A DNA stretch of 64,000 nt, taken from positions 124,001-188,000 of the forward strand of contig NZ_NFHH01000001.1 of assembly GCF_002161285.1 (NCBI RefSeq). The letters are read 5' to 3'. This document shows, piece after piece, positions 1 to 29,563 of this stretch. Position 1 is the first letter of the stretch. Each line of letters opens with the position of its first letter. Source of the stretch: Blautia sp. An81 (GTDB lineage: Bacteria; Bacillota; Clostridia; Lachnospirales; Lachnospiraceae). Made by a program: the position numbers and the translations under genes. A model generated the notes under the pieces. It worked only from the letters and a program-made list of their open reading frames with translations, was not told the DNA's origin and did no database searches.

Positions 1-1349
1 TGAACAGAATCTCCAAATCTGAACTCCTGAATCCTGACATAATTTTTGACGTATTGGATTTCATCCTTTAAATATACTTCCGTCCCCATATCGGTTAAAA
101 TATACCGATACATCATTGCCAAAGCTTCCGTTATTTTTTCTATCTCATAATTTTGGCTCTGTACGGCCTGACTTCGTATCATTTCAAAACAATTTGACAA
201 AAAATGGGGATTGATCTGCATCTGCAGCACAGCAAGCTTAGCTCTTAAAGTTTCATTTCGAGCCTTTGCCGTGGCCTCGATCATAGTATCCAGCTGCTCC
301 GCCATCCCGTTATACTGTCTTTCCAATATCTGCAGCTCTTCAAATTCGCTTAACACCTGCAGCCGTTTTAACTGGCCGGATCGTTCCATCTCTATAAGAT
401 TTCCAGTCAAAACACGAAGAGGCAGCGTAATTCTTTTCGACGCTTTGTAGGCGTAACAGCTGGCGCCCATCGCAAACAAAACAATTAGCAATACAGAGGT
501 CTTCATATTTGATTGAAAATTTTTTGTTGCTGAATCATAACTCATATACACTTCCAGCTTCCAGCCGTTTGGCAATTCGTATTTTTTATGATAGCTTTTT
601 TCGTGTATATTTTTTTCTTTTTTATAGTCTTCTGTTATTTGAACAGATTTTCCAATAGCATTTTGGATCGGAAAAGATACCAGATGGTCTTCGCCATCTG
701 AAATATACGCCAATGCAGCTGCATTGGAATTTATCACATCTAATCTGTTCTCCAGCTCTTCATACTTAAAATCTATCTGAAGGATTCCTCTGATGGTATG
801 GATATCATAAATATTATATATTTTTTTAACATAGGAAAATATATACGGTCCCTGCGTATTCCCCAAAAGATAATCCTGCCGGTGGACCGGGACATAAGGC
901 TGTTCGGCATTCTCATACGCCTGTCTGACGCTTACTCCCGATAAGATTTTCTCTGTATCCAGATCACCCTGAGTTGTACAGATCCACGAATCTTCCGGCA
1001 GCCAAAAAATATCCTGTATATATGCATAAGAACGGCGGAGGGCCATAAACTCTTCCTCAATTTCCTTATGCGTATCTAGCGCTTTCTTTTTGGGATTTTG
1101 TTCCATGCTGGGATAATCCTTTTCCTGTGTCAAAATATCTACTGCCTGATACTGCACAATATCAATCTGGGCAAAAAGATTTTCCAATTCCTTCAAAGCC
1201 TGCTTGGATTCCTTTTCAATCTCGCCGATACTCTGCTCCCTTGTATATCTATAATTCTTATAGATATAAAATCCGCTCATGATACATGCAGTCAGAGATA
1301 TTAATATCATATAGGATATCAGCATACTATTTTTAATTGTTTTCTTCAT
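1..1349 (-). CDS. YesM-family sensor histidine kinase (3' end outside window)
   Basis: I translated this by hand from the ATG at 1347-1349; the frame stays open to base 1, so the C-terminal ATPase part is missing. The visible ~449 residues show an N-terminal membrane segment (LISYMILISLTACIMSGFYI), an extracellular sensor region, a second membrane segment (TSVLLIVLFAMGASCYAYKA), a HAMP-like linker, then LQMQINPHFLSN, the phospho-acceptor motif of the His_kinase (YesM/LytS) family. Such kinases usually pair with an AraC-type response regulator and control the neighbouring carbohydrate ABC operon. The gene starts 16 nt after the glycosidase-like gene, as the last visible gene of that operon. 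A regulator gene would be expected just before base 1. Family call is firm; the signal sensed is unknown. Confidence 0.9.
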   Translation of the reverse strand, partial: MKKTIKNSMLISYMILISLTACIMSGFYIYKNYRYTREQSIGEIEKESKQALKELENLFAQIDIVQYQAVDILTQEKDYPSMEQNPKKKALDTHKEIEEEFMALRRSYAYIQDIFWLPEDSWICTTQGDLDTEKILSGVSVRQAYENAEQPYVPVHRQDYLLGNTQGPYIFSYVKKIYNIYDIHTIRGILQIDFKYEELENRLDVINSNAAALAYISDGEDHLVSFPIQNAIGKSVQITEDYKKEKNIHEKSYHKKYELPNGWKLEVYMSYDSATKNFQSNMKTSVLLIVLFAMGASCYAYKASKRITLPLRVLTGNLIEMERSGQLKRLQVLSEFEELQILERQYNGMAEQLDTMIEATAKARNETLRAKLAVLQMQINPHFLSNCFEMIRSQAVQSQNYEIEKITEALAMMYRYILTDMGTEVYLKDEIQYVKNYVRIQEFRFGDSV

Positions 1350-19132: not shown

Positions 19133-19301
19133 AAGTCTGTCCGCCTTTTTGGTATCTTTACATTATTTTAACAAAAACAGACTGGCTTATGCAAACAGAA
19201 AGACAGACATCCGATTTTCACATTTTATGCAGAGTCTCATAAAATATTACTGTAATATTCGGGCAGATATATTTCTGCTGATAGATCTGAGAGGTTTAAA
19301 A

Positions 19302-19580
19302 ATGGATAATTGCAGAATGAATTATACAGCTTCCCGTTCCTGCCGCATCAGCCCCAGGGAAATGTCTCCCTCCTGGGGCTGCCAACCTTCTTCAGGCAGT
19401 TCGGATAAGATTGAAGACACCTGCATTTACACCCATGCAGATGAACTTCCCCTGACAATGGCCTATGTGCCCTGTCAGAAATTTTCCAATACTTTCTCTT
19501 TGTGTAAAGGCCTGCAGATGGGAACCATCTTTCCGGAACTGTGCAAACCTTTTTGTGGAAAGCGAGGTGGCTGCAGATGA
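19302..19580 (+). CDS. cotJA: Spore coat-associated protein CotJA
   Basis: A 92-aa protein from ATG 19302 with GAGAGG upstream. The C-terminal half ELPLTMAYVPCQKFSNTFSL...GTIFPELCKPFCGKRGGC matches the CotJA pattern AMAYVPxQxW...GTIFPELDKPF; the N-terminus is lineage-specific. In spore formers cotJABC is transcribed in the mother cell under SigmaE and the products enter the inner coat. The stop TGA overlaps the cotJB start (ATGA). An upstream in-frame extension to 19089 lacks support. Confidence 0.88.
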   Translation: MDNCRMNYTASRSCRISPREMSPSWGCQPSSGSSDKIEDTCIYTHADELPLTMAYVPCQKFSNTFSLCKGLQMGTIFPELCKPFCGKRGGCR

Positions 19581-19849
19581 ATAAAAATTGCAGATATTCC
19601 AGAGAGCAGCTGTTAAATACCATCAACGAGGTCAGCTTTGCAGTAGATGACATAAAGCTTTATCTGGACACTCATCCTGAGGACGAAAAGGCTCTTGAAT
19701 TTTTTAAGGAAAAAGTAATGGTCCGGAACGAGGCCCTGAAAGAATATGCCGCCCAGTACGGTCCCCTGACCATTGATACTGGAGATGATGCCTGCAGCAG
19801 GCAATGGGACTGGGTCCTGGAACCCTGGCCATGGGAAGGAGTGTGCTGA
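19577..19849 (+). CDS. cotJB: Spore coat protein CotJB
   Basis: A 90-aa protein starting at the ATG that overlaps the cotJA stop. NTINEVSFAVDDIKLYLDTHPEDEKAL, YGPLTID and WDWVLEPWPWEGVC are hallmark CotJB segments. It ends 3 bp before the cotJC ATG, so all three genes form one translationally tight operon. Confidence 0.92.
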   Translation: MNKNCRYSREQLLNTINEVSFAVDDIKLYLDTHPEDEKALEFFKEKVMVRNEALKEYAAQYGPLTIDTGDDACSRQWDWVLEPWPWEGVC

Positions 19850-19852
19850 ATT

Positions 19853-19987
19853 ATGTGGAATTATGAAAAACGTTTACAATATCCTGTTCATATTAAAACG
19901 CCTAATGCAAAGATTGCCAAGATCATTCTTACGCAATATGGGGGCCCTTACTCCCGTAACCTAGAACGGTTTTTCTACTTATTTTAA
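19853..19987 (+). pseudogene. cotJC: cotJC 5' part (interrupted by the element)
   Basis: ATG 19853 begins MWNYEKRLQYPVHIK...ILTQYGGP, the canonical N-terminus of CotJC, a manganese-catalase-like coat protein. After the Pro codon at 19946-19948 the frame enters the element and adds 12 foreign residues (YSRNLERFFYLF) before TAA 19985-19987. The 44-residue product cannot be an active catalase. The rest of cotJC lies at 29024-29563. Confidence 0.93.
19940..19963 (+). other. attL of the cotJC element
   Basis: The left junction has the 9-bp core GGGGGCCCT (19940-19948), inside cotJC, then 7 nt and the inner arm GTAACCTA (19956-19963). The same core occurs at the right junction (29015-29023), and the arm recurs there inverted (TAGGTTAC). 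This is the arrangement expected for a large serine recombinase site; which two bases are cut is unknown. Confidence 0.8.
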
Positions 19988-20026
19988 ATGTGAATGAGAA
20001 TTGATTAAGAAGATGACACAATATGT

Positions 20027-20058
20027 ACTCCCCGGAGGGCTTCCGGGGAGTTTTTTTT
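20027..20058 (+). terminator. Strong terminator at the left end of the element
   Basis: Ten-bp perfect stem ACTCCCCGGA / TCCGGGGAGT, 5-nt loop, then eight T on the plus strand. It lies 40 bp after the truncated cotJC frame and would stop cotJ transcripts entering the element. With A-runs absent on the other side it is mainly plus-directed. Confidence 0.85.
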
Positions 20059-20095
20059 GATATAAATATTTATCATGAATAAAATCTTCCTATAT

Positions 20096-20647
20096 TTAGC
20101 CCTTTTTATTTTTTATAACAAATTTTTTCACCTCAAACAATATTGCATTACTTGTCCGTTCTGCTAGTTGTTGTTCTTCTAAAAACTTTTGAGTCTCTTT
20201 TTCATCCTCAAAGTCCCTATGTTTTAACAGTGTTTCTGTGACATCTAAATTATCTTTTATTTTTTTAATAAGGCTTCCAATATCTTCATACTTGTTTCTT
20301 TCATCTTCAATTTCAAGGATAAGCTGAAGTTCTAAAACTTTTCTATTATATTCCAGTAAATCTGAGAAATATTGTCCTTTATTCCCTTTTACTAATGAAG
20401 ATATAATTTTTTTAGGATACATATCTAAATAAGTAGCTTCATTTATAATTTTATGAAAAAATTCTAACTTTTCTTGTTGTTCTCTTTCCTGTCGATTTGA
20501 TACTATAGTCTTCCAAAGAACTATTAACGTAATTGCTCCACCAATAATGGCTCCTAAGTATGAGCCCCAAAATCCTATCCAGTCATTGCTTCCTTCTATT
20601 TTAGGCCACGGTATCCAATATGAAGACACACAAAACGCCACCACCAT
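20096..20647 (-). CDS. Small membrane protein with coiled coil, unknown function
   Basis: A 183-aa protein: one or two N-terminal hydrophobic segments (residues ~1-12 and SYLGAIIGGAITLIVLWKTIV, ~28-48), then a long charged, helical region rich in Glu, Lys and Gln. The layout SNDWIGFWGSYLGAIIGG is common in small hypothetical proteins of Firmicutes mobile elements. I do not recognise a function. It is the last minus-strand gene of the Rep-side module, 5 bp after a small ORF. Confidence 0.6.
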   Translation of the reverse strand: MVVAFCVSSYWIPWPKIEGSNDWIGFWGSYLGAIIGGAITLIVLWKTIVSNRQEREQQEKLEFFHKIINEATYLDMYPKKIISSLVKGNKGQYFSDLLEYNRKVLELQLILEIEDERNKYEDIGSLIKKIKDNLDVTETLLKHRDFEDEKETQKFLEEQQLAERTSNAILFEVKKFVIKNKKG

Positions 20648-20652
20648 AGGGC

Positions 20653-20814
20653 TTATTGGCCAAAGTCCGCCGGCGTCTCTGTCACCTGGTTCATGACATA
20701 ATCAATTTCCTGGAGTTCTTTACGGTGCATTGCCGCCGTCTGCCAGTCATTTATTGCTCCGGATATAGATCGGTGTGTCCCCGGTTCGCCACAGCCCAGG
20801 TATTTCAATATCAT
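20653..20814 (-). CDS. Small hypothetical protein of the element
   Basis: A 53-aa frame from ATG 20812-20814 (MILKYLGCGEPGTHRS...) to TAA 20653-20655. The same frame is open further upstream with coding-like content (KCGRYGQPFWITDDEE) but without a normal start codon, so the true start is uncertain. It sits between rep and the membrane-protein gene with tight spacing. Confidence 0.4.
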   Translation of the reverse strand: MILKYLGCGEPGTHRSISGAINDWQTAAMHRKELQEIDYVMNQVTETPADFGQ

Positions 20815-20864
20815 CTTTTCTTCGTCATCTGTAATCCAGAAGGGCTGTCCATACCTTCCGCATT

Positions 20865-21587
20865 TTATCCTCCCTCCTTAATCAGCGTGTAATAGATAAA
20901 TTCGTAGCCGTCCGCCGTAAATCCTTCCCTAAGACTGTCTTTATCCAGATACCAGCCTGGGGGAATTTTTATTTCCCGGGAAAACCTATTCCCCTTCATT
21001 GGCTGTTTTTTCGGCACAGGGCGAATCAGGTTCTTGCTGGGATTGTAAGATTTTTTCTGAAGCTGTTCGTCTGTATCTCTGGTCTTTTGAAAGTACTTGA
21101 TGAAGTATTCCGCCAGCCTTCGATATTGCCCATTTCTCTCCATTGGCTTTAACGTTGTATATCCATATGGCCATACATCCCTTATCTTTCTGGCGTCAAT
21201 AGGGCTGAGTACCATATGTATATGGGCAGCTCCTCTTGTTCCCACTTCTGCGGTCCAGATGTACTTTAGAATCCGTTTTTCCTTTTTGTATACTTTTCTA
21301 AGATCCCGCAGGAGTTTCTGTTCCTGCTTATGCAAAAGCTTCGCATCCTGCGGTCTGTCTTCCTTTCGGTAGCTGAAGGTCACATACCAGCACTCTCCAT
21401 TAAAATTTGCGTTCAACAGCCTTGTCAGTCTTTTTACCAAGTGCCTGTCGTTGATTTTTCTTTGCTGCTCCGTTGTGGGGTTTACCCGGGGCCTTCTCTT
21501 TTGTCCCTTTGGCTGCAGCCAATATGTATAAAACTTGGCAATCTCCTTTGTCTTCCCTGCCTTGCATATCATCTTCATGTACGGCAT
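20865..21587 (-). CDS. HUH-type replication initiator (Rep, ORF2/G2P-like)
   Basis: Start at ATG 21585-21587 behind AGGAGG. The 240-aa basic protein has the three landmarks of rolling-circle HUH endonucleases: motif 1 CWYVTFSYRKE, motif 2 GAAHIHMVLS (the His-x-His metal pair), and motif 3 LAEYFIKYFQK with Tyr and Lys (YxxKYxxK), the nicking Tyr candidate. The fold resembles phage/plasmid Rep ORF2/G2P proteins. It probably nicks a nearby origin so the excised circle can replicate. Two perfect hairpins lie directly upstream (21633-21731). Confidence 0.75.
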   Translation of the reverse strand: MPYMKMICKAGKTKEIAKFYTYWLQPKGQKRRPRVNPTTEQQRKINDRHLVKRLTRLLNANFNGECWYVTFSYRKEDRPQDAKLLHKQEQKLLRDLRKVYKKEKRILKYIWTAEVGTRGAAHIHMVLSPIDARKIRDVWPYGYTTLKPMERNGQYRRLAEYFIKYFQKTRDTDEQLQKKSYNPSKNLIRPVPKKQPMKGNRFSREIKIPPGWYLDKDSLREGFTADGYEFIYYTLIKEGG

Positions 21588-21632
21588 ATTCTGTCCTCCT
21601 GGTTGAAACAGTAATAAACTTAGCAAGTCTAA

Positions 21633-21659
21633 AACGGGCATTCGCCCGTTGTTTTTTTT
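21633..21659 (+). terminator. Hairpin with T-run upstream of rep
   Basis: Seven-bp stem AACGGGC / GCCCGTT, loop ATTC, G then eight T on the plus strand. No plus-strand gene precedes it, so besides being a terminator it could be part of a replication origin for the adjacent Rep. Confidence 0.55.
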
Positions 21660-21707
21660 CGGCCATATATGCTATACTTGTCCTGTGATGAGTAGCCTAT
21701 ATGGCTT

Positions 21708-21731
21708 GCCCGGAGGTTTCGGCCTCCGGGC
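21708..21731. repeat. Perfect GC-rich hairpin upstream of rep (candidate origin)
   Basis: Nine-bp perfect stem GCCCGGAGG / CCTCCGGGC with a 6-nt TTTCGG loop. It is immediately next to the stop of the 21734-21946 gene and ~120 bp upstream of rep. On the plus strand TTCTATTTTT follows. Together with the hairpin at 21633 it makes a candidate double-strand origin or terminator pair. Confidence 0.5.
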
Positions 21732-21733
21732 TT

Positions 21734-21946
21734 CTATTTTTGTATGAATGGTATTTCAAGGTTTCCGCTCCTGTCCCGCCGGCGGCATCCCATAAAGTGT
21801 TCCTTTCCTCCATGGGAGCCGTAGAACTGATCTATGGTGTGAAAGCTCTCCAGCGACAGAGAAGTGATTCCATATCGTGCTTTTATTTCCTCAATCTTGT
21901 GAAATACAGGAATTAAATCTTTGCTTAAATCGGCAAATTCTCCCAT
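21734..21946 (-). CDS. Small hypothetical protein of the element
   Basis: A 70-aa soluble protein (MGEFADLSKDLIPVFHKIEEIKARYG...) with a good AAGGAG site 8 nt before ATG. Predominantly helical and charged. No family recognised. It lies in the minus-strand run of small genes ahead of rep. Confidence 0.55.
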   Translation of the reverse strand: MGEFADLSKDLIPVFHKIEEIKARYGITSLSLESFHTIDQFYGSHGGKEHFMGCRRRDRSGNLEIPFIQK

Positions 21947-21988
21947 TGCATTTTCTCCTTACTCGCCTTATAATAAAGGCGTGCTAAA

Positions 21989-22183
21989 CTATTTAACGTC
22001 CGTTTGGGTGCCAGCCCGGCGGACCTCTTCTTTTTTCAATGCTTCTTTGTAATCACATACCGCCATGAAGGCTTTAACGCAGAGTTCCATGGTTTTGTTT
22101 CGTGGTAGATTACGATTTTTAATATATTCGCTGCATTCATCACGCAGCATTTCCTCCATTTTGAATACTGTTTTGCTTTTCAC
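21989..22183 (-). CDS. Small hypothetical protein of the element, GTG start
   Basis: GTG 22181-22183 has AGGAGG 8 nt upstream, which decides the start over an ATG at 22219. The 64-aa product (MKSKTVFKMEEMLRDECSEYIKNRNLPRNKT...) is helical and charged; it could be a small DNA-binding or copy-control protein but nothing proves it. Overlaps the end of the next upstream gene by 44 nt. Confidence 0.5.
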   Translation of the reverse strand: MKSKTVFKMEEMLRDECSEYIKNRNLPRNKTMELCVKAFMAVCDYKEALKKEEVRRAGTQTDVK

Positions 22184-22364
22184 ACTTTTTTCGCCTCCTC
22201 TCTTCCCAGTCCCGGGCAACTTCTATCAACCACAGTATTGCGCCAAATATAATTGTTACTCCTAAAATCTGCGTGAATATTCCGTCCTCCGGCGGGATGC
22301 GAAATACTGTGTTGAACGCCAGGGCTGTCAATAATGCTGCCTCCGTGATGCTTGTCCTATGCAA
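22140..22364 (-). CDS. Small membrane protein of the element, TTG start
   Basis: TTG 22362-22364 has AAAGGAGG 8 nt upstream. The 74-aa protein has a hydrophobic stretch ITEAALLTALAFNTVF and a second, TQILGVTIIFGAILWLIEVA, followed by a very basic tail (RDWEERRRKKCEK). The size and layout would fit a phage minor coat or holin-like protein, but that is only a shape argument. Confidence 0.5.
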   Translation of the reverse strand: MHRTSITEAALLTALAFNTVFRIPPEDGIFTQILGVTIIFGAILWLIEVARDWEERRRKKCEKQNSIQNGGNAA

Positions 22365-22386
22365 TGCTTGTCCCTCCTTTCCCGCC

Positions 22387-22539
22387 TCAGGCGGTCTTTT
22401 TCTTAAGCTTAGTTTCAAATCCAACCGCCCTTCCGGCCCGGCAGATTGTCTCGGCTACAATTTTTGCCACCATTTCTTCCGGGAGCTGGTCTTGATTTAC
22501 CCATTTTCCATTTACTTTAATTTCGCTGATTATTTGCAT
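22387..22539 (-). CDS. Very small hypothetical protein of the element
   Basis: A 50-aa frame read by hand: ATG 22537-22539, beginning MQIISEIKVNGKWVNQDQLP and ending ETKLKKKTA, with AGAGGTG upstream. Clean coding sequence between two other small genes; no family recognised. Confidence 0.5.
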   Translation of the reverse strand: MQIISEIKVNGKWVNQDQLPEEMVAKIVAETICRAGRAVGFETKLKKKTA

Positions 22540-22689
22540 TGAATCACCTCTGTTTTAGGGTATGTAATGTACGTTGTCCAGGTTCATATCTAAACACAAT
22601 ATGTTCCTGGAAGTTTTCTGCACTCTGCATTTACACGGGGTTGTGACCGCCCTTGCCTGCATTACAGGCGGAGCTTATGCTCCGCTATC

Positions 22690-23574
22690 CTATTTTTCAG
22701 TTGAATCTGTAACTACTGTGTCTGCTCCCTGGACAGTTACCCAGCCATGTTCCTTCCGGGCTTCAGCTTCTGTCATTTTAATAAGTTCGTCTGTAATAGA
22801 TGCAGCCTTAATCCGGTTCGCTTCAGCTTCAGCCTCTGCATTTGTAATTGTAACCGCCTTATCCGCTTCCGCTTTTGCTTTGTCGGCTTCTCCCTGAGCA
22901 ATAGCGGTCTGCTTATCCAGTTCCGCTTTCTCTGCGTCCTGCTTTGCCTGTTCTTTTGCCTGTACCTTGGTCTGAAGCTCCTCATCAAGCTGCACATCTA
23001 TGATCAGAGCGGAGGAAACTTCCATTCCATACTCTTCTCCTAATTTTGCGTTCAAATATTCAGTAATGGCCTGTCCGACCTCTGCTCGTTTGTCTGAGTA
23101 GATGTCCATGACAGAAAACTGTGGCGTGACTTCTTTTATGTATGCAAGTATGGAATTTTTCACCTTAGATTCCACGATCTGGTTTCCGTCCATGCCGTTA
23201 AATTTTTCATATACGCTGGTCACTTTTTCCGGTATGAAATTATAGTTGACAGTCATATTCATCTTTACCATTCCGCCATCTGCTGGAGCGTCAACATGAG
23301 TATCTTTTTCCAGTTTCTTTTCATTGAAATCTGCTGCATTGTTGCTGAGCACAAGCTGCTGCTGCGATACTGGAAAATTTTCCACACGGTTAAACGGTCC
23401 TACAAAATGAATCCCTGGACCAAGAGTTTTTTCCTGTACTCCGTTTTGGACTGACCAGACTACCCCAACTTCTCCCTGATCTACGCTTGTCAACGACATA
23501 GCTATATAGATCCCTCCAGCGATAGCAGCTATTCCGATAATGATTCCAGCTATTATTGAAGATTTCTTACTCAT
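22690..23574 (-). CDS. SPFH/band-7 (prohibitin-like) membrane protein
   Basis: A 294-aa protein with an N-terminal membrane anchor (SSIIAGIIIGIAAIAGGIYIAMSL), an SPFH domain (residues ~30-200, e.g. VDQGEVGVVWSVQNGVQEKTLGPGIHFVGPF), and an Ala/Glu/Lys coiled-coil tail rich in QAKEQAKQDAEKAELDK-type repeats. SPFH proteins form membrane rings or microdomains. Its presence on the element is unusual; a role in membrane defence, superinfection control or assembly is conceivable. It overlaps the preceding HTH gene by 8 nt. Confidence 0.85.
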   Translation of the reverse strand: MSKKSSIIAGIIIGIAAIAGGIYIAMSLTSVDQGEVGVVWSVQNGVQEKTLGPGIHFVGPFNRVENFPVSQQQLVLSNNAADFNEKKLEKDTHVDAPADGGMVKMNMTVNYNFIPEKVTSVYEKFNGMDGNQIVESKVKNSILAYIKEVTPQFSVMDIYSDKRAEVGQAITEYLNAKLGEEYGMEVSSALIIDVQLDEELQTKVQAKEQAKQDAEKAELDKQTAIAQGEADKAKAEADKAVTITNAEAEAEANRIKAASITDELIKMTEAEARKEHGWVTVQGADTVVTDSTEK

Positions 23575-24007
23575 TCTTATTCTCCTTTACTTTCTTCTTC
23601 ATTTTTTTGTAAGCTTCCTTTTCCACATCAAAAGCGTTTTCTCTTCTTTTGATGGATATAAATGCCTTATTCCATATCCACCATACTGCTATCCCGGCTA
23701 TGGCTAGTGTAAGGACGGCAGCTACGAATACAAGAAACCTCATGTTTTCACCTCCTGCTTCTCTTAATATTGTAATTACATGTAATGTGCCACTTTTTGT
23801 CTCATTTCGTGACAATTTAAATAAAAAAATTTCTTGTACGCTTCTTTTATAATATTTTGCCAATTTAATTTTTATAGAATCTCTGGGCACTCGTTTTTCA
23901 GTTTCATACATTCCAAGTGTAGATGTAGCTATTCCGATATCTTTCGCTACCTCTTCCTGAGTTTTATCTCCTCTTAACTCAGTAAGTTTTTTCCCGAATC
24001 CTTCCAT
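23567..24007 (-). CDS. XRE-type HTH protein running into a membrane segment
   Basis: Start at ATG 24005-24007 (MEGFGKKLTELRGDKTQEEVAKDIGI) behind AAAGGAGG. Residues 1-60 are an XRE helix-turn-helix. The same frame continues without stop through a low-conservation stretch to MRFLVFVAAVLTLAIAGIAVWWIW and a Lys-rich tail. An ideal AGGAGG site stands before that internal Met (ATG 23741-23743), and the joining stretch contains an operator-like repeat (GTC-TCATTTC-GTGAC, ~23799-23813). So this is either a membrane-tethered regulator or two genes that lost the separating stop. Confidence 0.7.
   Translation of the reverse strand: MEGFGKKLTELRGDKTQEEVAKDIGIATSTLGMYETEKRVPRDSIKIKLAKYYKRSVQEIFLFKLSRNETKSGTLHVITILREAGGENMRFLVFVAAVLTLAIAGIAVWWIWNKAFISIKRRENAFDVEKEAYKKMKKKVKENKNE
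23741..23743 (-). promoter_or_regulatory. Internal start codon with ideal ribosome site
   Basis: ATG preceded by AGGAGGTGAAAAC on the minus strand, inside the long HTH frame. Translation from here would give a 58-aa single-pass membrane protein just upstream of the SPFH gene. Confidence 0.55.
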
Positions 24008-24025
24008 TTGCTCCTCCTTTCTTTT

Positions 24026-24130
24026 GTCACTTTTTGTGACTAGCCATAATATATCACTCATCTCTCATATTGTCAATATCTTTCTTCACATTATGTGACA
24101 CTTTTCATTTACTTTTACCACGTTTTGTGA
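24026..24130. promoter_or_regulatory. Operator cluster between divergent repressor genes
   Basis: The 150-bp divergent region carries three related palindromes: GTCAC-TTTTT-GTGAC (24026-24040), TCACATTATGTGA (24086-24098) and CAC-GTTTT-GTG (24119-24129), a TCAC...GTGA family. The third lies just upstream of a TAATAT/TATATA region and the AAGGAGG of the plus-strand repressor. This is a typical lysogeny-type switch, presumably bound by one or both XRE proteins. Confidence 0.7.
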
Positions 24131-24157
24131 TAATATGTATATAAGGAGGTTTCAAAT

Positions 24158-24550
24158 ATGGGCGATTTCAGTAAAATATTTAAAGCTTTACGACAGTCTA
24201 GCGGATACACGCAACAAGAGTTTGCGGATAAAATAGGTATTTCACGAAGCACTATAGGTATGTACGAAACAGGCGCTCGGGAACCCGATTTTGAGACATT
24301 AGAAGCTATAGCTGATTTTTTTAATGTAGATATTGATTATTTATTAGGAAGAACTAACAAGACAACCGTACTACCCGAATCTTCCTACTATTTTAATGAT
24401 GAAGCTAGAGAAATGGCAGAATTCATGTTTAAACATCCAGAATACAAAGTATTATTTGATGCTTCACGGAAAGTAAAAAAAGAAGATATCGAATTTGTTA
24501 AAGAAATGATTGACCGTGTAAGGGGTGATTCCAATGACACCGGTTGTTAA
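24158..24550 (+). CDS. ImmR/CI-like XRE repressor
   Basis: A 130-aa protein; residues 1-67 form an XRE HTH (SKIFKALRQSSGYTQQEFADKIGISRSTIGMYE...IDYLLGR), the C-terminal part is helical. AAGGAGG precedes the ATG. It is followed, with overlap, by an ImmA/IrrE-like peptidase gene, the arrangement of the ICEBs1 immunity repressor and its anti-repressor protease. It most likely keeps the divergent minus-strand genes and perhaps excision silent. Confidence 0.82.
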   Translation: MGDFSKIFKALRQSSGYTQQEFADKIGISRSTIGMYETGAREPDFETLEAIADFFNVDIDYLLGRTNKTTVLPESSYYFNDEAREMAEFMFKHPEYKVLFDASRKVKKEDIEFVKEMIDRVRGDSNDTGC

Positions 24551-24752
24551 TGTATCATTAGCCGACCTACCATGTTCTATAAAAGCATATACCGTGGTTT
24601 CACCGGATGGTACATACAATATAATTTTAAGTTCCAGGCATACCCACTATCAACATTTATTATCTTACCATCATGAAATGAGCCATATAGAAAATGGCGA
24701 TTATGATAAGCAGTGCAGCGCTGATTTAGTTAAATTTTTTGCACACGGCTAA
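24534..24752 (+). CDS. Small ImmA/IrrE-like metallopeptidase
   Basis: Start at ATG 24534 (MTPVVNVSLADLPCSIKA), overlapping the repressor end by 17 nt. The 72-aa product has HHEMSHIENGDYD, that is HExxH followed by an acidic residue, the zinc site of ImmA/IrrE proteins. It is about half the usual ImmA length, so it is a minimal or C-terminally shortened version. Expected role: cleavage of the neighbouring repressor upon a cell signal. Confidence 0.72.
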   Translation: MTPVVNVSLADLPCSIKAYTVVSPDGTYNIILSSRHTHYQHLLSYHHEMSHIENGDYDKQCSADLVKFFAHG

Positions 24753-24793
24753 ACCATTTTAATACACAACCAATTATATAGGGAAGGAATTTT

Positions 24794-25873
24794 ATGAAAA
24801 AGAAATTTTTAATTCTCTTATTGATCCTATGTTTTTCTGCCTCAACAATAGCATGCAACTTCCACGAGTTTGCTCAAAAAGGAGACTATTCTCAATCTAA
24901 TCTCGACCAAGGGGCATCCAATGAAAGAGAAGGCCCCAACCAAACATCAAATACGGTTTTTCAAAGCAATGCATCTGTTTCGCTAGTGGCTAATATCACA
25001 TCGCCCAAAGTCGGGGATGCCAAAATGTTCTGTAATAAAATAGCTGCTGGTTCGGACGGTGAGCTTGTTCTTTTTAATACCGATGGAACTGTATATAAAA
25101 AATTTTCTAATATTCCTGTAAACTGGCTATACCCATCTGAGGACGATATGATTATTGTCAGTGGTAGTTTTAACCATCAAATTCTTCTCACAGAATTTGA
25201 TGACGATTTTGAAATTAAGAATAGTAAGGTGTTGTTTGATAATACCAACCTTCTTATCGATCCTACCATAACAAAATATAACGATATATGGATATTAACA
25301 TATATTGAAATCAATGGAACTGTAAATAATTCAAATCCAGATGCTGAAAATGGATTGTACACAGTACATTGTTATACATCGTCGGATCTTTCAGAATGGA
25401 CACTTGTTTCTGATATTATCTCTTGTAAAAATAATATAGAAGATGGTGATTTAGTTATTAACAATGACATTTTCTATTATATTTTCGAAAAAGAGTCTTA
25501 TGACAAGGGTCCTTCCTCTTTAGAAGTAATTTCCTCTAAAGATCATGGCGTAACCTGGGAAAACAAAAAAACAATTATTTCAAATGATTCCGATAATGAA
25601 CTTGCTTCTGTATTTCCAACTTCTTCAGGATATAGTTTATACTATAGCAGTGATGTACAAAATCCCGGAAAAAGTTATGACGGAGCATCTGTTTATTGTG
25701 CAAATCTAAAAAATGATTTTTCTATGGAGAATACATATGAGATTCCGCTTGATGAAACTAATGGGATCCTTTTATATGATGTTGTAAGAAAAGATAGGGA
25801 CTGCTATTTTCTCTATTCTCAAAATTATATAACAAAAAACAATTTATTGCTTAAGAAAATTTCTTTAAAGTAA
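24794..25873 (+). CDS. Lipoprotein with sialidase-like propeller character, cargo
   Basis: A 359-aa secreted protein with lipoprotein signal MKKKFLILLLILCFSASTIAC (lipobox STIAC). The mature part is low in GC, rich in Asn and Asp, and contains ISSKDHGVTWENKK, an Asp-box (S-x-D-x-G-x-T-W) as in BNR/sialidase propellers, and SSDLSEWT. Function unknown; it may bind or degrade an extracellular ligand. Base composition is clearly AT-richer than the host genes, consistent with transfer. Confidence 0.7.
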   Translation: MKKKFLILLLILCFSASTIACNFHEFAQKGDYSQSNLDQGASNEREGPNQTSNTVFQSNASVSLVANITSPKVGDAKMFCNKIAAGSDGELVLFNTDGTVYKKFSNIPVNWLYPSEDDMIIVSGSFNHQILLTEFDDDFEIKNSKVLFDNTNLLIDPTITKYNDIWILTYIEINGTVNNSNPDAENGLYTVHCYTSSDLSEWTLVSDIISCKNNIEDGDLVINNDIFYYIFEKESYDKGPSSLEVISSKDHGVTWENKKTIISNDSDNELASVFPTSSGYSLYYSSDVQNPGKSYDGASVYCANLKNDFSMENTYEIPLDETNGILLYDVVRKDRDCYFLYSQNYITKNNLLLKKISLK

Positions 25874-25913
25874 TCCATATTTCGCCATTTTACAAAAGAG
25901 GGGGGAATCTCTT

Positions 25914-26804
25914 ATGGGATTAAGGTTTAAAAAAAGTATCAAAATTGCTCCTGGGGTAAAGCTAAATCTAAATAAGAAAAGTACAAGTGTTACTTTTGGC
26001 GGAAAAGGGTTTCATCACACTATAAGTTCAACTGGAAAGAAAACCACAACCGTCGGTGTACCCGGTACGGGAATAAGTTATACGGAAACTTCTTCCAAAA
26101 GAAAAGCTTCCACTCCACCGCCGCTTCCTCCAGAAGGCACTTCTGGGTTCAATGCTTTGCCAGAGGATCCTAACAACAGGAAACAACGTGGCTGCCTATT
26201 TTATTTACTTGCTCTTTTGGCTATTTGTTTTGCCATTGTGTTATATCCCCTTGTATGGATACCGGCTATTGGATTTTTAGTATACTTTCTCATCAGAAAA
26301 GATCTGTACGGCACCAAGAGGCGGAATATAGCAATTTCAGGCGCAGTATTTATAACTTCTTTAATTGTTTTTGCTTTGTTTCCGTCATCTTCTGATTCCC
26401 CCGAAAGCATATATGCCGATTGGGGAAAAGATACCTTTGATGTGTCAGAAACAACAGAGGTAAAAATAACAACTTCTCTTTCAGATGCCGATATTACTTC
26501 TCTTGAACTCTCTTCGAATGAGATTGCAGAGCTTGATTATACTGATGGCAAAGCGGTTATTACATTTAAGGAGCCCGGAGAGGCTGCATTATTCTTTACT
26601 ACTAACCATGATATAGATAGCAACACGGTAAAAATCTCTGTAACTGACAAAGTGGCTGAAGAGGCAAAAGCCAAAACAGAAGAGGAAGCAAGGATTAAAG
26701 CTGAACAGGAAGCTCAGGCCAAAGCGGAAGAAGAGGCAAGAATTAAAAATTTGTCAAACATGAAAACTACCCCGGTGCGCCAGCACCAGGAAGGATGTAT
26801 ATAA
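25914..26804 (+). CDS. DUF4236-domain membrane protein, cargo
   Basis: A 296-aa protein. Residues 1-55 are the DUF4236 motif (MGLRFKKSIKIAPGVKLNLNKKSTSVTFGGKGF...VGVPGTGISYTE). Then comes a Pro-rich spacer, two or three membrane helices (residues ~95-165), a Big2/Ig-like segment (~170-245) and an Ala/Glu/Lys heptad-like stretch (EEARIKAEQEAQAKAEEEARIK). The C-terminus is abrupt (TTPVRQHQEGCI) and TAATG couples it to the next start. Function unknown. Confidence 0.78.
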   Translation: MGLRFKKSIKIAPGVKLNLNKKSTSVTFGGKGFHHTISSTGKKTTTVGVPGTGISYTETSSKRKASTPPPLPPEGTSGFNALPEDPNNRKQRGCLFYLLALLAICFAIVLYPLVWIPAIGFLVYFLIRKDLYGTKRRNIAISGAVFITSLIVFALFPSSSDSPESIYADWGKDTFDVSETTEVKITTSLSDADITSLELSSNEIAELDYTDGKAVITFKEPGEAALFFTTNHDIDSNTVKISVTDKVAEEAKAKTEEEARIKAEQEAQAKAEEEARIKNLSNMKTTPVRQHQEGCI

Positions 26805-27118
26805 TGGAACTAAACATTGAAGATTTAAAAAAGATCTGTACTATAGAAAATCTTGAAATCACTCTCCATGCAGCCAAACGCTTGGAGCAGCGTGGTATAA
26901 AAACTTCCGATATCATAAATTGTATAAAAAGCGGCACAATAATAGAGCAATATCCTACAGACTATCCGTATCCAAGCTGTCTTATTTTAGGAATGGCCGT
27001 TTCAAATCATTTTCTACATGTAGTCGTTGGAAGTGATTTAAGAACCCTTTGGATTGTAACTGCTTATTATCCAGATCCCGCAAAATGGGAATCTGATTTC
27101 CGGAGAAGAAAGGAGTAA
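26804..27118 (+). CDS. DUF4258 protein, candidate toxin
   Basis: A 104-aa protein from ATG 26804, which overlaps the previous stop by one base. ITLHAAKRLEQRGIKTSDIINCIKSGTIIEQYP and LIVTAYYPDPAKWESDFRRRK-type C-terminus are typical of DUF4258, a family related in shape to small RNase toxins (RelE/MqsR-like). It is followed 5 bp later by a YgiT-type zinc-finger gene, the common toxin-antitoxin arrangement. Toxicity is inferred. Confidence 0.75.
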   Translation: MELNIEDLKKICTIENLEITLHAAKRLEQRGIKTSDIINCIKSGTIIEQYPTDYPYPSCLILGMAVSNHFLHVVVGSDLRTLWIVTAYYPDPAKWESDFRRRKE

Positions 27119-27123
27119 TTGAT

Positions 27124-27351
27124 ATGACTTGTTTTTTATGCAAAGGTGATGTAGAAAAATCCACAACCACTTATATGACGGAATATAACGGCTGCTACAT
27201 CATTATCAAAAATGTACCTTGTACAAAGTGTACTCAGTGTGGTGAAGAATTCCTAAACGGGGTTACTCTTCAGAAAATTGAAAAAATCCTGGAGGGTCTT
27301 AAATCCATGCTGACAGAATTTGCCGTTGTTGACTATAATAAAGCCGCATAA
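27124..27351 (+). CDS. YgiT-type zinc-finger protein, candidate antitoxin
   Basis: A 75-aa protein with CxxC pairs CFLCKGDVE and CTKCTQCGEEF, the zinc-binding N-terminal domain found in MqsA/YgiT antitoxins. The C-terminal helix is short and lacks the MqsA HTH. GGAG overlaps the DUF4258 stop. The pair may stabilise the element in the population. Confidence 0.78.
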   Translation: MTCFLCKGDVEKSTTTYMTEYNGCYIIIKNVPCTKCTQCGEEFLNGVTLQKIEKILEGLKSMLTEFAVVDYNKAA

Positions 27352-27532
27352 TACAATAAAAACCGCCCCTGCGCCAACAGGAACGGCTTTACATACATAT
27401 CCGAAGATATGCGCTTACTTTGGACGGTAATATTGTATCATCTTCGGGGCAGTCATGCAAGCGGAACAAAAGTTCGCTGGCTGTTATTTTTGTACCTATT
27501 TTTACATAGTTTCAAAAGAGGAGATGATAAAC

Positions 27533-28975
27533 ATGGCAGAACTCCAAGACAACTACACGGACGGCGCCCTGTATATCCGTGTCAGCACAGACAAACAGGA
27601 GGAACTCTCTCCTGACGCCCAGAAGAGGCTACTGCTGGATTATGCCAGGAAACATAAAATTCTAGTAAAGGAGGAGCATATCTTCATAGAAAACGGCATA
27701 TCCGGGAGAAACGCCAGGAAACGTCCGGAGTTTCTAAGAATGATATCCATGGCAAAATCAAAGCCCGTTCCCTTCCAGACTATCTTGGTGTGGAAGTTCA
27801 GCCGTTTTGCCCGGAACCAGGAGGAATCCATTGTCTACAAATCCATGCTTAAGAAACAGTGCGGCATTGAAGTGGTAAGCACCTCAGAGCCCCTCATAGA
27901 AGGTCCCTTTGGCAGCCTGATTGAAAGGATTATAGAATGGATGGACGAATATTACTCTATCAACCTATCTGGGGAAACTTCCCGGGGAATGACGGAAAAA
28001 GCCCTGCGAGGCGGCTATCAATCTTCACCGCCTCTGGGATACAAAGCTGTTGGCGGCGGAGCTCCTTTTTTGATAATTCCTGAGGAGGCCCGGGTGGTCT
28101 CCTATATCTTTGAGCAGTACTGTCATTATCACAGGGAGCCCACAGCCATAGCCAGACAAATCAACGATATGGGGATTCACACCAAAAGAGGCGGCCAGTT
28201 TGAACGCCGTAATATCATGTATATTCTCCAGAATAAGTTTTATATAGGGGAATTGGAGTGGAACGGGATTTCTTCCCGGGGCCAGCATGAAACCTTCATT
28301 TCCCCGGAAATGTTCCAGGAGGCCCAAAGGCGCATTACTAACACTTATTCTCCCAAGAAGCGCCGCAGCGTATCCACCTGCAGGCACTGGCTGTCCGGTC
28401 TGGTAAAGTGCTCTATCTGCGGAGCCTCCCTTTCCTATAACACCGGGAAATACCCCTATTTCGTCTGTCATCGGTACGCTAAGGGATTTCACAAGGGAAG
28501 CTCAGCAATCGGCGAAAAGCGGCTGATACGCAGTGTAGAGGAGTATCTGAATAAGCTGCTGAAGGGCCAGGATTTTACTCTTTCTTACATAGAACGTGAT
28601 GCTCCAGAGATTACCGCCCAGGGCCAGTGTAAAAAGGAGCTGGAGAGCCTGGCCATCCGGGAGAAGCGCATTAAGATGGCCTATGAAACTGGTGTGGATA
28701 CCTTGGAGGAATACAAAGAGAATAAGGAACGGCTCCTGCAGGAAAGGGAACGCCTTGAAAAACAATTCGCTCAGCTCCAGGAAGCTCCTGCCGCCCCGGA
28801 CGCAAAGGAAGGTTTTCTCAAAAAGGTGCAGACCGTATATGATATCATTGAAAATCCTGAGATAGGAAATGAAACAAAAGGTGTCTTCATCCGCTCTGTA
28901 ATAGAGGAAATCATCTATGATAAGGAGCAAGATACCTTGACTTTCCATCTCTACAGTCCCCGAAACCCCGCATAA
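27533..28975 (+). CDS. Large serine recombinase of the element
   Basis: Start at ATG 27533 with GAGGAG upstream; a frame extension to 27455 lacks a site. The 480-aa protein has the resolvase catalytic domain with Ser18 in YIRVSTDKQ and the arginine-containing VWKFSRFARN, a Recombinase domain (~residues 165-270), a zinc ribbon CSICGASL...YFVCHRY near 340, and a coiled coil (KENKERLLQERERLEKQF). It lies 40 bp from attR, as expected for integrases of this class. It should catalyse integration into, and with a directionality factor excision from, cotJC. No directionality factor is identifiable by sequence. Confidence 0.95.
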   Translation: MAELQDNYTDGALYIRVSTDKQEELSPDAQKRLLLDYARKHKILVKEEHIFIENGISGRNARKRPEFLRMISMAKSKPVPFQTILVWKFSRFARNQEESIVYKSMLKKQCGIEVVSTSEPLIEGPFGSLIERIIEWMDEYYSINLSGETSRGMTEKALRGGYQSSPPLGYKAVGGGAPFLIIPEEARVVSYIFEQYCHYHREPTAIARQINDMGIHTKRGGQFERRNIMYILQNKFYIGELEWNGISSRGQHETFISPEMFQEAQRRITNTYSPKKRRSVSTCRHWLSGLVKCSICGASLSYNTGKYPYFVCHRYAKGFHKGSSAIGEKRLIRSVEEYLNKLLKGQDFTLSYIERDAPEITAQGQCKKELESLAIREKRIKMAYETGVDTLEEYKENKERLLQERERLEKQFAQLQEAPAAPDAKEGFLKKVQTVYDIIENPEIGNETKGVFIRSVIEEIIYDKEQDTLTFHLYSPRNPA

Positions 28976-28998
28976 ATACTGGGGTTTCAGGCTTCCCA

Positions 28999-29023
28999 TA
29001 GGTTACTGATGTAAGGGGGCCCT
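28999..29023 (+). other. attR of the cotJC element
   Basis: Inner arm TAGGTTAC (28999-29006), 8 nt, then the core GGGGGCCCT (29015-29023) followed directly by the remaining cotJC codons (GACGGCGAG...). The reconstructed circular attP would be arm, core, inverted arm, symmetric to within one base. Confidence 0.8.
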
Positions 29024-29563
29024 GACGGCGAGATGGGTGCCTCTATGCGTTATCTGTCCCAGCGTTACACCATGCCCAACCGTATTGCCATGGGAACCCT
29101 AAATGACATTGCCACTGAAGAGCTTGGCCATCTGGAAATGGTATCTACCATTGTCCATCAGCTGACCAGAAATCTTTCTATGGAAGAAATCGAGAAATCC
29201 GGTTTTGCCGACTACTATGTGGACCACACCGTAGGAATCTGGCCCCAGGCGGCAGGCGGAATTCCTTTTAACGCCTGTGAATTCCAGTCCAAGGGAGATC
29301 CTATCACTGATCTTTTTGAAGATATGGCCGCAGAGCAGAAAGCCCGGACTACCTATGACAACATCCTCCGGCTGGTGGATGACCCCGATGTGCTAGACCC
29401 TATCCGTTTCCTCCGTGCCAGAGAAATCGTTCATTTCCAGCGATTCGGGGAAGTCCTCCGTTCTGTCCAGGAAAATCTGGACTCAAGAAACTTTTACGCT
29501 TTTAATCCAAGTTTTGATATGCCCTGCAAGGCAAGCTGCAAAGACTGCACTTCCAGGAATTAA
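29024..29563 (+). pseudogene. cotJC: cotJC 3' part (interrupted by the element)
   Basis: Codons from GAC 29024 encode DGEMGASMRYLSQRYTMPN...TEELGHLEMV...AEQKARTTYDNILRL...CKASCKDCTSRN, the manganese-catalase body of CotJC with its Glu/His metal ligands (TEELGHLE, AEQKA, AREIVHFQRFGE). It lacks a promoter, ribosome site and start of its own; the first in-frame ATG (29033) is inside the conserved domain. Joined to the 5' part it gives a 211-aa protein of normal CotJC size. Confidence 0.93.

Follow-up and report, generated by a model that had tools for sequence, protein, structure and literature searches.

The described systems closest to the locus considered here are intervening elements that split sporulation genes. 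In Clostridioides difficile, the skin-Cd element lies within sigK, with the gene for its serine recombinase, CD1231, adjoining the 3' part of the split gene, and its excision restores sigK (Serrano 2016, PMC5025042). The recombination directionality factor (RDF) of skin-Cd, CD1234, is a small protein under mother-cell control (sigmaE and SpoIIID), and its transcription starts 14 bp before the start codon (PMC5025042). The SPbeta prophage splits spsM of Bacillus subtilis, where the recombinase SprA and the 58-aa RDF SprB are reported to suffice for excision during sporulation and the -10 site of the RDF gene is of the sigmaE/sigmaK type (PMC4191935). A non-phage element called gin, found in gerE of Bacillus cereus ATCC10987, is described as having a serine recombinase and directionality factor (GirC/GirX) and a 9-bp core (PMC5595907). 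The yin element of Clostridium botulinum splits yabG, a sigmaK-controlled coat-related gene, and has a putative small RDF whose gene is preceded by a putative SigK promoter (PMC10747680). Finally, the phi027 prophage of C. difficile R20291 adjoins a CotJC homologue and is reported to excise spontaneously (PMC11222575).

The locus analyzed here lies in a 64-kb stretch of DNA from Blautia sp. An81, called the window below, in which a 9,075-bp element interrupts cotJC at codons 30-32. The cotJ genes form a mother-cell operon, and the insertion lies inside the coding sequence of this mother-cell sporulation gene, as in skin-like elements. The initial annotation had described cotJA and cotJB as intact and cotJC as split by a 9.1-kb element with the same repeat at each junction. 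Both descriptions hold: Pfam matches were obtained for CotJA and CotJB, and the two copies of the repeat, GGGGGCCCT, are 9,075 bp apart. The features of the split operon are as follows.

19220..19246, + strand: sigmaE/sigmaK-type promoter-like site 5' of cotJA, AC-N16-CATAAAATA (pattern scan)
19302..19580, + strand: cotJA, intact (Pfam CotJA 1.7e-18 on 19371-19580; start read from the sequence)
19577..19849, + strand: cotJB, intact (Pfam CotJB 1.5e-29)
19853..19948, + strand: 5' part of cotJC, codons 1-32 including the core (sequence)
19940..19948, + strand: left core GGGGGCCCT, attL (sequence)
19949..29014, no strand: intervening element (GC 0.404 versus 0.44 in the flanks)
29015..29023, + strand: right core GGGGGCCCT, attR (sequence)
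29015..29563, + strand: 3' part of cotJC, codon 30 to stop (Pfam Mn_catalase 1.1e-33 on 29033-29563)

The core is found exactly twice on the + strand of the window (19940-19948 and 29015-29023) and not at all on the other strand, and recombination between these short direct repeats would restore the reading frame, another property of skin-like elements. When the 5' part, which starts at 19853 with ATGTGGAATTAT, is computationally fused to the 3' part at GGGGGCCCT, the result is 636 nt encoding an unbroken 211-aa CotJC. This rejoining in frame, also anticipated by the initial annotation, agrees with the intact genes of relatives: the fused gene is colinear with them through the junction, and over 600 nt it shares 76-88% DNA identity with its intact counterpart in the seven Blautia relatives compared, the four nearest being at 85-88%. 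A search of the window's genome with the right half gave one match, so no second copy of cotJC was found there; with whole CotJC as the query there were two matches, the listed one being the right half and the other presumably the 5' piece of the split gene. The same class of sigmaE/sigmaK-type site precedes cotJA in seven related loci. The window's genome also has spoIVA and an uninterrupted sigK-type ORF. A split sigK was considered and rejected, since the best match, at 299.4 bits versus a cut-off of 298.65 and aligned from model position 24, is a single open frame of 212 aa.

The element contains the following genes and sites.

20865..21641, - strand: rolling-circle-type replication protein, REP_ORF2-G2P (Pfam 2e-18; PHROG replication initiation 2.1e-52)
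22387..22539, - strand: 50-aa candidate RDF (family profile, with this protein among the seeds)
22556..22583, - strand: promoter-like site of the candidate RDF gene, AC-N17-CATACCCTA (pattern scan)
22690..23574, - strand: SPFH/Band_7 protein (Pfam 1.7e-24)
23567..24061, - strand: protein with a helix-turn-helix (HTH_3) region (Pfam 3.3e-08)
24158..24550, + strand: HTH_3 (Cro/CI-type) regulator (Pfam 2.3e-20)
26795..27118, + strand: DUF4258 protein, possibly the toxin of a toxin-antitoxin pair (Pfam 4.9e-26)
27124..27351, + strand: YgiT-type zinc finger/MqsA-like protein, possibly the antitoxin (TIGR03831 2.5e-14; Pfam MqsA 5.6e-4, below cut-off)
27533..28975, + strand: large serine recombinase, site-A clade (Pfam Resolvase 6.3e-25, Recombinase 1e-17, Zn_ribbon 2.9e-08; tree)

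Like skin-like elements, this one encodes a site-specific recombinase. A large serine recombinase had been noted next to the right junction, and the 27533-28975 gene is indeed of this kind: its stop codon is 39 nt 5' of the right core, and its product has all three domains of the family (N-terminal Resolvase, Recombinase and the zinc ribbon, Zn_ribbon_recom). Six element proteins compared with PHROGs fell into replication, integration, transcription regulation and a "lipoprotein" family (the SPFH protein), with one unknown and no match for the 50-aa protein, and no phage structural gene, as a prophage would carry, was found among the element proteins scanned (Pfam, and PHROGs on those six).

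Joining the two ends of the element yields an imperfect palindrome around a central GG, AGGTTACtgatGTAAGGG-GG-CCCTTACtcccGTAACCT; this is more than chance would give and is what the attP of a serine recombinase should look like. From the palindrome test, 33 of the 159 loci were left out, having too little sequence or no plus-strand match. The solved recombinase nearest to this family is SprA/YokA (E 3e-30). Across genomes, cotJC is split at five sites in all (A, B1, B2, C and D), with a distinct recombinase clade at each, and the recombinase tree clusters by site with five label changes, the minimum. A cotJC piece is present at 21 of the 30 recombinase-family loci in the family (the window locus counted) and at 61 of the 79 in named genomes. 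The script detected no in-register core of 5 nt in 11 of the 35 junction pairs, which were then read by eye and have overlaps of 2-14 nt; among these, two genomes (G202 and G206) each have two elements in tandem at site B.

The initial annotation had proposed searching Lachnospiraceae genomes for intact cotJC and for the same insertion; both were found, and the split recurs across the family. A paired split, called by position, is present in 81 of 243 CotJC-bearing family genomes, which is a lower bound, and in roughly one in three such genomes annotation will label as "broken" a spore gene that may work. In the 126 family genomes searched once, a near-full-length CotJC match (start <= 9, end >= 195) was obtained in all 126. 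Split cotJC genes are also found in other Clostridia outside the family, sometimes with several insertions per gene, and cotJC of Blautia parvula is in five pieces, one of them 12 nt long.

Most site-A elements encode an unannotated protein of about 50 aa, here considered a candidate for the element's directionality factor on the basis of its co-occurrence, size and promoter. It is found in all 12 named loci with both A junctions (five of which supplied seeds of the RDF profile). Among loci of the recombinase family it occurs at 55 of 79 in genomes and 56 of 80 in viral sequences. Among nine whole A elements, the profile match is strong in the window and in L091, L100 and L101, weak in L334 (3e-5) and L107 (8e-4), and absent in L105, L106 and L333. 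The window's 50-aa protein has no match in Pfam, PHROGs or NCBIfam, and its fold model has a mean pLDDT of 89. Neither a profile search, whose best match (E 0.002) covered 23 residues of an unnamed chain, nor Foldseek (best E 3.3) supported homology to RDFs of solved structure.

A promoter of the form AC-16..18-CATANNNT precedes 60 of 107 candidate RDF genes, versus 1.7 expected, when the scan is anchored on start codons that follow a ribosome-binding site and duplicate upstream regions are dropped; the same pattern precedes 14 of 488 other ORFs. A looser scan found CATANNNTA alone 5' of 43 of 112 candidate RDF genes, and with the start of the RDF profile as anchor the count was 0 of 109, since N-terminal leader columns form part of that profile. 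Taken by itself, the window contains the strict pattern three times, versus 1.4 expected. The candidate RDF gene thus seems often to be under a mother-cell sigmaE/sigmaK-type promoter, as assigned by consensus. Small ORFs with a mother-cell-type promoter gave 15 matches in the B, C and D loci: seven are cotJA, two are a protein of 49-50 aa in the B2 element and six belong to no cluster shared by at least two loci. This promoter and small-ORF scan yielded no RDF candidate for sites B1, C and D.

If the halves of cotJC had decayed independently in relatives, the initial annotation reasoned, the insertion would be a dead one. Such decay was not seen. All 27 split genes in the 27 genomes covered by the stop check are free of internal stops; in other genomes, stop codons may occur, in the gene or in the element, where a match extends beyond a junction. 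The median dN/dS is 0.029 for pairs of split genes (highest 0.047, seven pairs) and 0.012 for split-intact pairs (highest 0.183, 14 pairs). These 21 pairs within range involve 10 of the 27 split genomes; four codons were trimmed per junction, and pairs with dS outside 0.05-1.5 or with fewer than 60 codons were dropped. The values indicate that purifying selection acts on the cotJC pieces, and, with the absence of stops, they led us to reject a dead insertion as the general case. Between the window and its nearest split relative, dS is 1.09 for the recombinase and 1.48 for cotJC, with a cotJC dN of 0.009, making long residence without decay plausible. Elements pared to little more than the recombinase and the ~50-aa gene also persist.

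These results bear on the view that cotJC is a tolerated landing site of little value, which elements rarely leave and which is lost cheaply. In 16 of the 81 split genomes a separate full-length cotJC is also present, so that excision may not be needed there, and in C. difficile, insertions in cotCB and cotD are reported to lower catalase activity with no significant coat defect, as if CotJC-type catalases were redundant for the coat in that species (PMC11222575). The occurrence of the same recombinase family on predicted prophages fits a mere landing site as well. A few insertions appear stuck, because their recombinase is short or truncated (at least three elements, G155, G328 and G367) and two of these also have no RDF match; such insertions may be dead, although their cotJC pieces are still open. 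Nevertheless, a dispensable site is hard to reconcile with 27 stop-free split genes, low dN/dS in the pairs within range and the persistence of pared-down elements, and it does not predict a mother-cell-type promoter at the candidate RDF gene. We regard this view as unlikely.

Still less probable, in our judgment, is a series of recent, independent prophage insertions that leave only by SOS-type excision, the split being transient, with no time for decay and no involvement of sporulation. The recombinase family does occur on predicted prophage contigs (the best 80 of 171 matches in IMG/VR). A search of phage records gave a single distant match (36.8%). Closed attP forms also exist: one related prophage is known both as a form joined to cotJC and as a form whose attP is closed, the two being 97.4% identical over 7.5 kb and diverging at the core. 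The closed form comes from another isolate, of unspecified growth state. However, for insertions common to two species the recombinase dS is 1.08-1.46, and those pairs are therefore not recent copies of one another; the lack of a phage structural gene among the window's scanned element proteins and the promoters of the candidate RDF genes also argue against this view. An assembly artefact or chimera can be set aside with near certainty: the draft genome that contains the window has 82 contigs, but the same site and recombinase clade recur in many assemblies, including the complete genomes of B. parvula (NZ_CP084061.1) and Hungatella hathewayi (CP102274.1), and the att palindromes agree with the empty sites in relatives.

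The best reading, and in our estimation a likely one, is a developmentally excised, skin-like element at a conserved attB in cotJC. This reading is supported by the split with its core, the palindromic attP, the adjoining recombinase, the match of clades to sites, the purifying selection on the cotJC pieces and the related prophage with its joined and closed forms, and it is strengthened by the candidate RDF with its mother-cell-type promoter. From sequence, we infer mother-cell timing, RDF function, promoter use and a need for excision. In this model, a serine-integrase-type mobile element would sit at a conserved attB within cotJC (codons QYGGP), and in vegetative cells, where cotJC would be off anyway, the gene would stay split. 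Once sporulation is under way, the ~50-aa directionality factor would be switched on in the mother cell from a sigmaE/sigmaK-type promoter; this factor together with the element's recombinase would recombine attL with attR at the GG core. The element would depart as a circle, leaving a continuous cotJABC message and intact CotJC for the coat, while the forespore would retain the element. The overall logic would be that of skin and SPbeta, applied to cotJC.

We also lean, with less assurance, toward a broader proposal: that cotJC is a class-wide hub of developmental DNA splicing, in which at least five serine-recombinase lineages each own one site in a gene of about 630 bp, several elements can occupy one gene at once (as in B. 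parvula, with its five pieces, one of 12 nt), and one coat enzyme is built through several mother-cell excisions, the timing of which is set by directionality factors of ~50 aa, a new family controlled by sigmaE/sigmaK. The repeated insertions into this one small gene make testable the long-open question of whether intervening elements are passengers or domesticated developmental switches, and the five groups of site-specific recombinases with their natural att sites, plus a candidate RDF family, are of use in genome engineering.

If it is skin-like, as seems likely, the element stands apart from the described systems in its target, cotJC, which is hit repeatedly, at five sites and by separate recombinase clades. 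Unlike the window's element, phi027 is given no account of splitting or restoring the CotJC homologue in the available text of PMC11222575. The yin element shares a coat-related target and a putative small RDF with a promoter, but differs in the gene and is described as unique to its isolate (PMC10747680). The gin element is likewise non-phage, with a serine recombinase, a 9-bp core and a mother-cell gene as target, but is described as 28.6 kb long, with three recombinase genes, in gerE (PMC5595907). SPbeta resembles the present case in its small RDF (here a candidate) with a sigmaE/sigmaK-type site, and SprA/YokA is the solved recombinase nearest the present family; SPbeta, however, is a large active prophage in another gene, whereas the element in the window measures 9 kb and its scanned proteins include no phage structural one. 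The arrangement of skin-Cd is similar in that the recombinase gene borders the 3' part of the split gene and a small (here candidate) RDF has a mother-cell-type promoter, although the candidate RDF, outside the Pfam, PHROGs and NCBIfam families, is set beside CD1234 by description only. Skin-Cd is one insertion in sigK, and skin-Cd, SPbeta, gin and yin are each described as interrupting a sporulation gene once; cotJC, in contrast, has been struck repeatedly, at five sites and, in some relatives, by several elements in the same gene.

The element that splits cotJC in the window is very probably developmentally excised; we infer the timing of excision, the function of its candidate recombination directionality factor (RDF) and the physiological need. 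Both cotJA and cotJB are intact there, and cotJC lies in two parts:

19853-19948: cotJC 5' part, from its start at 19853 up to the core GGGGGCCCT (19940-19948)
29015-29563: cotJC 3' part, resuming at the second core (29015-29023) and ending at 29563

The 9-bp core GGGGGCCCT occurs at only two places in the 64-kb window, both of them cotJC junctions. The initial annotation had claimed a split gene that could be rejoined in frame, and this stands: the joined cotJC, 636 nt long, encodes a protein of 211 aa, and the intact genes of the seven Blautia relatives compared are colinear with it (76-88% identity over 600 nt). Searches of the window's genome (4.3 Mb, 82 contigs) with CotJC found no further cotJC; spoIVA is present, and a sigK-type ORF of 212 aa, which at 299.4 bits is barely above the cut-off, is uninterrupted. 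The element is 9,075 bp long, with a GC content of 0.404 versus about 0.44 in the flanks, and encodes a rolling-circle-type replication protein, an SPFH protein, HTH regulators and a large serine recombinase; no phage structural genes were found among the element proteins scanned. The recombinase had also been placed at the right junction, and its stop codon indeed lies 39 nt from the right core. Directly before it (26795-27351) is a DUF4258 and YgiT/MqsA-like pair, likely a toxin-antitoxin module, which, if such, could stabilise the element.

A dead insertion was considered and, as the general case, rejected: internal stops are absent from all 27 split genes, over 186-207 codons. By the NG86 method, applied to pairs with dS of 0.05-1.5 (pairs that include a split gene draw on 10 of the 27 split genomes), median dN/dS was 0.029 for split-split pairs (highest 0.047, 7 pairs), 0.012 for split-intact pairs (highest 0.183, 14 pairs) and 0.036 for intact-intact pairs (highest 0.152, 8 pairs). 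The window and genome G201, both split at site A, differ in cotJC by a dS of 1.48 and a dN of 0.009, and in their recombinases by a dS of 1.09. The comparison is consistent with one old, shared insertion at A kept in working order, though the two may instead have been gained independently. Identity between these two genomes is 89% across 116 nt of attL-side (left-junction) DNA and 83% across 1.6 kb of the recombinase region, with little matched in the rest of the cargo. The recombinases of genomes G202 and G206 (dS 1.08-1.34) are more diverged than their cotJC genes (dS 0.60). At loci L106, L333 and L329 (genomes G155, G328 and G367), the recombinase ORFs are short (273-384 aa), lacking the C-terminal part, and the elements very small (about 1.6-2.7 kb); both site-A elements among them also lack the candidate RDF. 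These recombinases are either decayed or short-form enzymes, and some elements look stuck.

When the window recombinase was used as query, 30 of 200 family genomes gave a match at E <= 1e-60, and 21 of the 30 recombinase loci taken (the window's own included) hold a cotJC piece, with the break in nearly all of them close to codon 31. Such a piece was present in 61 of 79 named loci (the best 79 of 487 relatives) and in 15 of 80 IMG/VR loci (the best 80 of 171). Within the genus, taken to be Blautia, with B. parvula (G202) among its members, all 20 genomes have cotJC: 8 paired split, 11 intact, and one (G215) with a 5' piece that diverges, by eye, at site D and is outside the paired-split count. 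In the Lachnospiraceae draw, CotJC matched 243 of 397 genomes, of which 116 were searched again individually, giving 117 rows with the window's genome. The initial annotation had suggested looking for the same insertion in relatives, and splits of cotJC recur, at this and other sites: left and right pieces meet at one site in 81 of the 117 rows, paired by position, with junction sequence read in 27 genomes only. A further 20 rows had one half only and 16 neither; a near-full-length CotJC match is listed in all of the other 126 family genomes. By site, the paired splits number 32 at A, 35 at B, 15 at C and 12 at D, with two sites in 13 genomes, and 16 of the 81 split genomes have a separate full-length copy. 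Outside the family, matches to CotJC came from 248 of 391 genomes in the same class; among 30 searched again, chosen mostly for partial matches, the same windows gave paired pieces in 19 (12 families) and looser windows in 22 (13 families). Stop codons occur in some of these matches. The length of the inserted DNA varies between about 2 kb and nearly 90 kb, since the site-A pieces of Hungatella hathewayi DSM 13479 (CP102274.1; loci L108/L109 of G046) lie about 87 kb apart. Locus L226, from Clostridium sp. Marseille-P2415, resembles a tandem repeat of the element, since two cotJC 5' pieces and three identical copies of the candidate-RDF gene follow one another there.

Site B comprises two sites, B1 at codon 61 and B2 at codon 65. 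In a tree of 55 recombinases (22 A, 10 B1, 1 B of unsure subtype, 5 B2, 8 C and 9 D), the enzymes group by site: the label changes 5 times, which is the minimum, as against a mean of 29.8 after shuffling. Two B2 rows form long branches, and how the clades join at depth is unsure. The unsure B enzyme nests within B1. The site-A clade arises partly by construction, because it was assembled through homology to the window's enzyme; the B, C and D enzymes were found by adjacency to their junctions, except that of G111, a B1 row, which is 3.7 kb from its cotJC piece. In two complete genomes a 12-nt cotJC piece lies between the B1 and B2 elements:

G206, 4195460-4195471: 12-nt cotJC piece GGTACAGAGGAA
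G202 (Blautia parvula NBRC 113351, NZ_CP084061.1): 12-nt cotJC piece GGTACTGAGGAA

Four pieces in G206 and five in G202 each join to give 210 aa; on the assumption of a circular record, the G202 gene extends over about 131 kb. The window's own genome encodes one more recombinase of this family (contig C41, locus L340, 5241-6839; 51% identical), which abuts a gene fragment (4792-5199) with a peptidoglycan-binding domain (PG_binding_1, 5e-17). Among the 159 loci taken from named genomes and IMG/VR, 17 carry a fragment of that gene, so a sister group of these integrases seems to target another gene, possibly spore-related.

Joining the ends of the window element creates a palindrome around a GG centre, the form that attP takes for serine integrases. 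Of 35 junction pairs in 27 genomes, 24 gave by the same computation an in-register core of 5 nt or more; the remaining 11, read by eye, overlap by 2-14 nt. A ATAGGTTAC-like outer repeat is common to site-A attP arms in several genera. Over 7,533 bp, two IMG/VR contigs (L242 and L243) share 97.4% identity; they part at GGTGGACC, one running into cotJC and the other into the second arm of attP. In a palindrome test of A-family loci, a score of at least 16 matches among the 21 arm positions (shuffles reached 15) was attained by 10 of the 50 that lack a cotJC piece and by 1 of the 76 that have one; because several are near-copies, the ten represent fewer events. Both states, joined to cotJC and closed as attP, thus exist, in sources that are different isolates or metagenomes and speak to the states rather than to excision timing.

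Elements reduced to 2-4 kb carry the recombinase and an ORF of about 50 aa on the opposite strand, the candidate RDF:

22387-22539, strand -: candidate RDF, window copy

With an iterated profile, matches were obtained in 55 of the 79 genome loci, 56 of the 80 viral loci and all 12 named loci holding both A junctions, 5 of which, like the window, had supplied profile seeds. Among eight further whole A elements it is strong in 3, weak in 2 and absent from 3, two of the last also having a short recombinase. No family in Pfam, PHROGs or NCBIfam matched at a useful score; in the AlphaFold model (mean pLDDT 89) the protein forms a hairpin and a helix, and comparison with the PDB gave no convincing match. 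The motif AC-16..18-CATANNNT occurs in 60 of 107 distinct upstreams. A Markov model gave a mean of 1.7 and at most 5; the reverse strand had 2, and among 488 other ORFs that have a ribosome-binding site the motif stood before 14. Its -10 is mostly 24-30 nt before the start. Judged by the B. subtilis consensus, the candidate RDF gene carries a putative sigmaE/sigmaK-type promoter. AC-N16-CATAAAATA lies upstream of cotJA in the window, and in a scan of B, C and D loci for a mother-cell-type promoter plus small ORF, 7 of 15 matches were cotJA itself, so that candidate RDF and target operon appear to carry the same promoter class. A longer motif, ACAAGTACA, perhaps the site of a second regulator, precedes 34 of the 107 genes (expected 0.39; 0 of 488 other ORFs) and is absent upstream of the window copy. 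Two B2 elements (L093:12408+ and L096:2503-) encode a 49-50-aa protein with a mother-cell-type promoter, a candidate RDF of the B2 clade.

Described targets of intervening elements include sigK, spsM, spoVFB, spoVR, gerE, yabG and kamA (PMC5595907, PMC6957869, PMC10747680, PMC5025042). No report of cotJC split in this way was found among the matches listed by full-text searches of the open PMC collection; the nearest hint is phi027 of C. difficile R20291, which adjoins a CotJC homologue (PMC11222575). The layout of the candidate RDF resembles those of two small RDF genes with mother-cell promoters: CD1234, with a start site 14 bp upstream (PMC5025042), and SprB, with one 20 nt upstream (PMC4191935).
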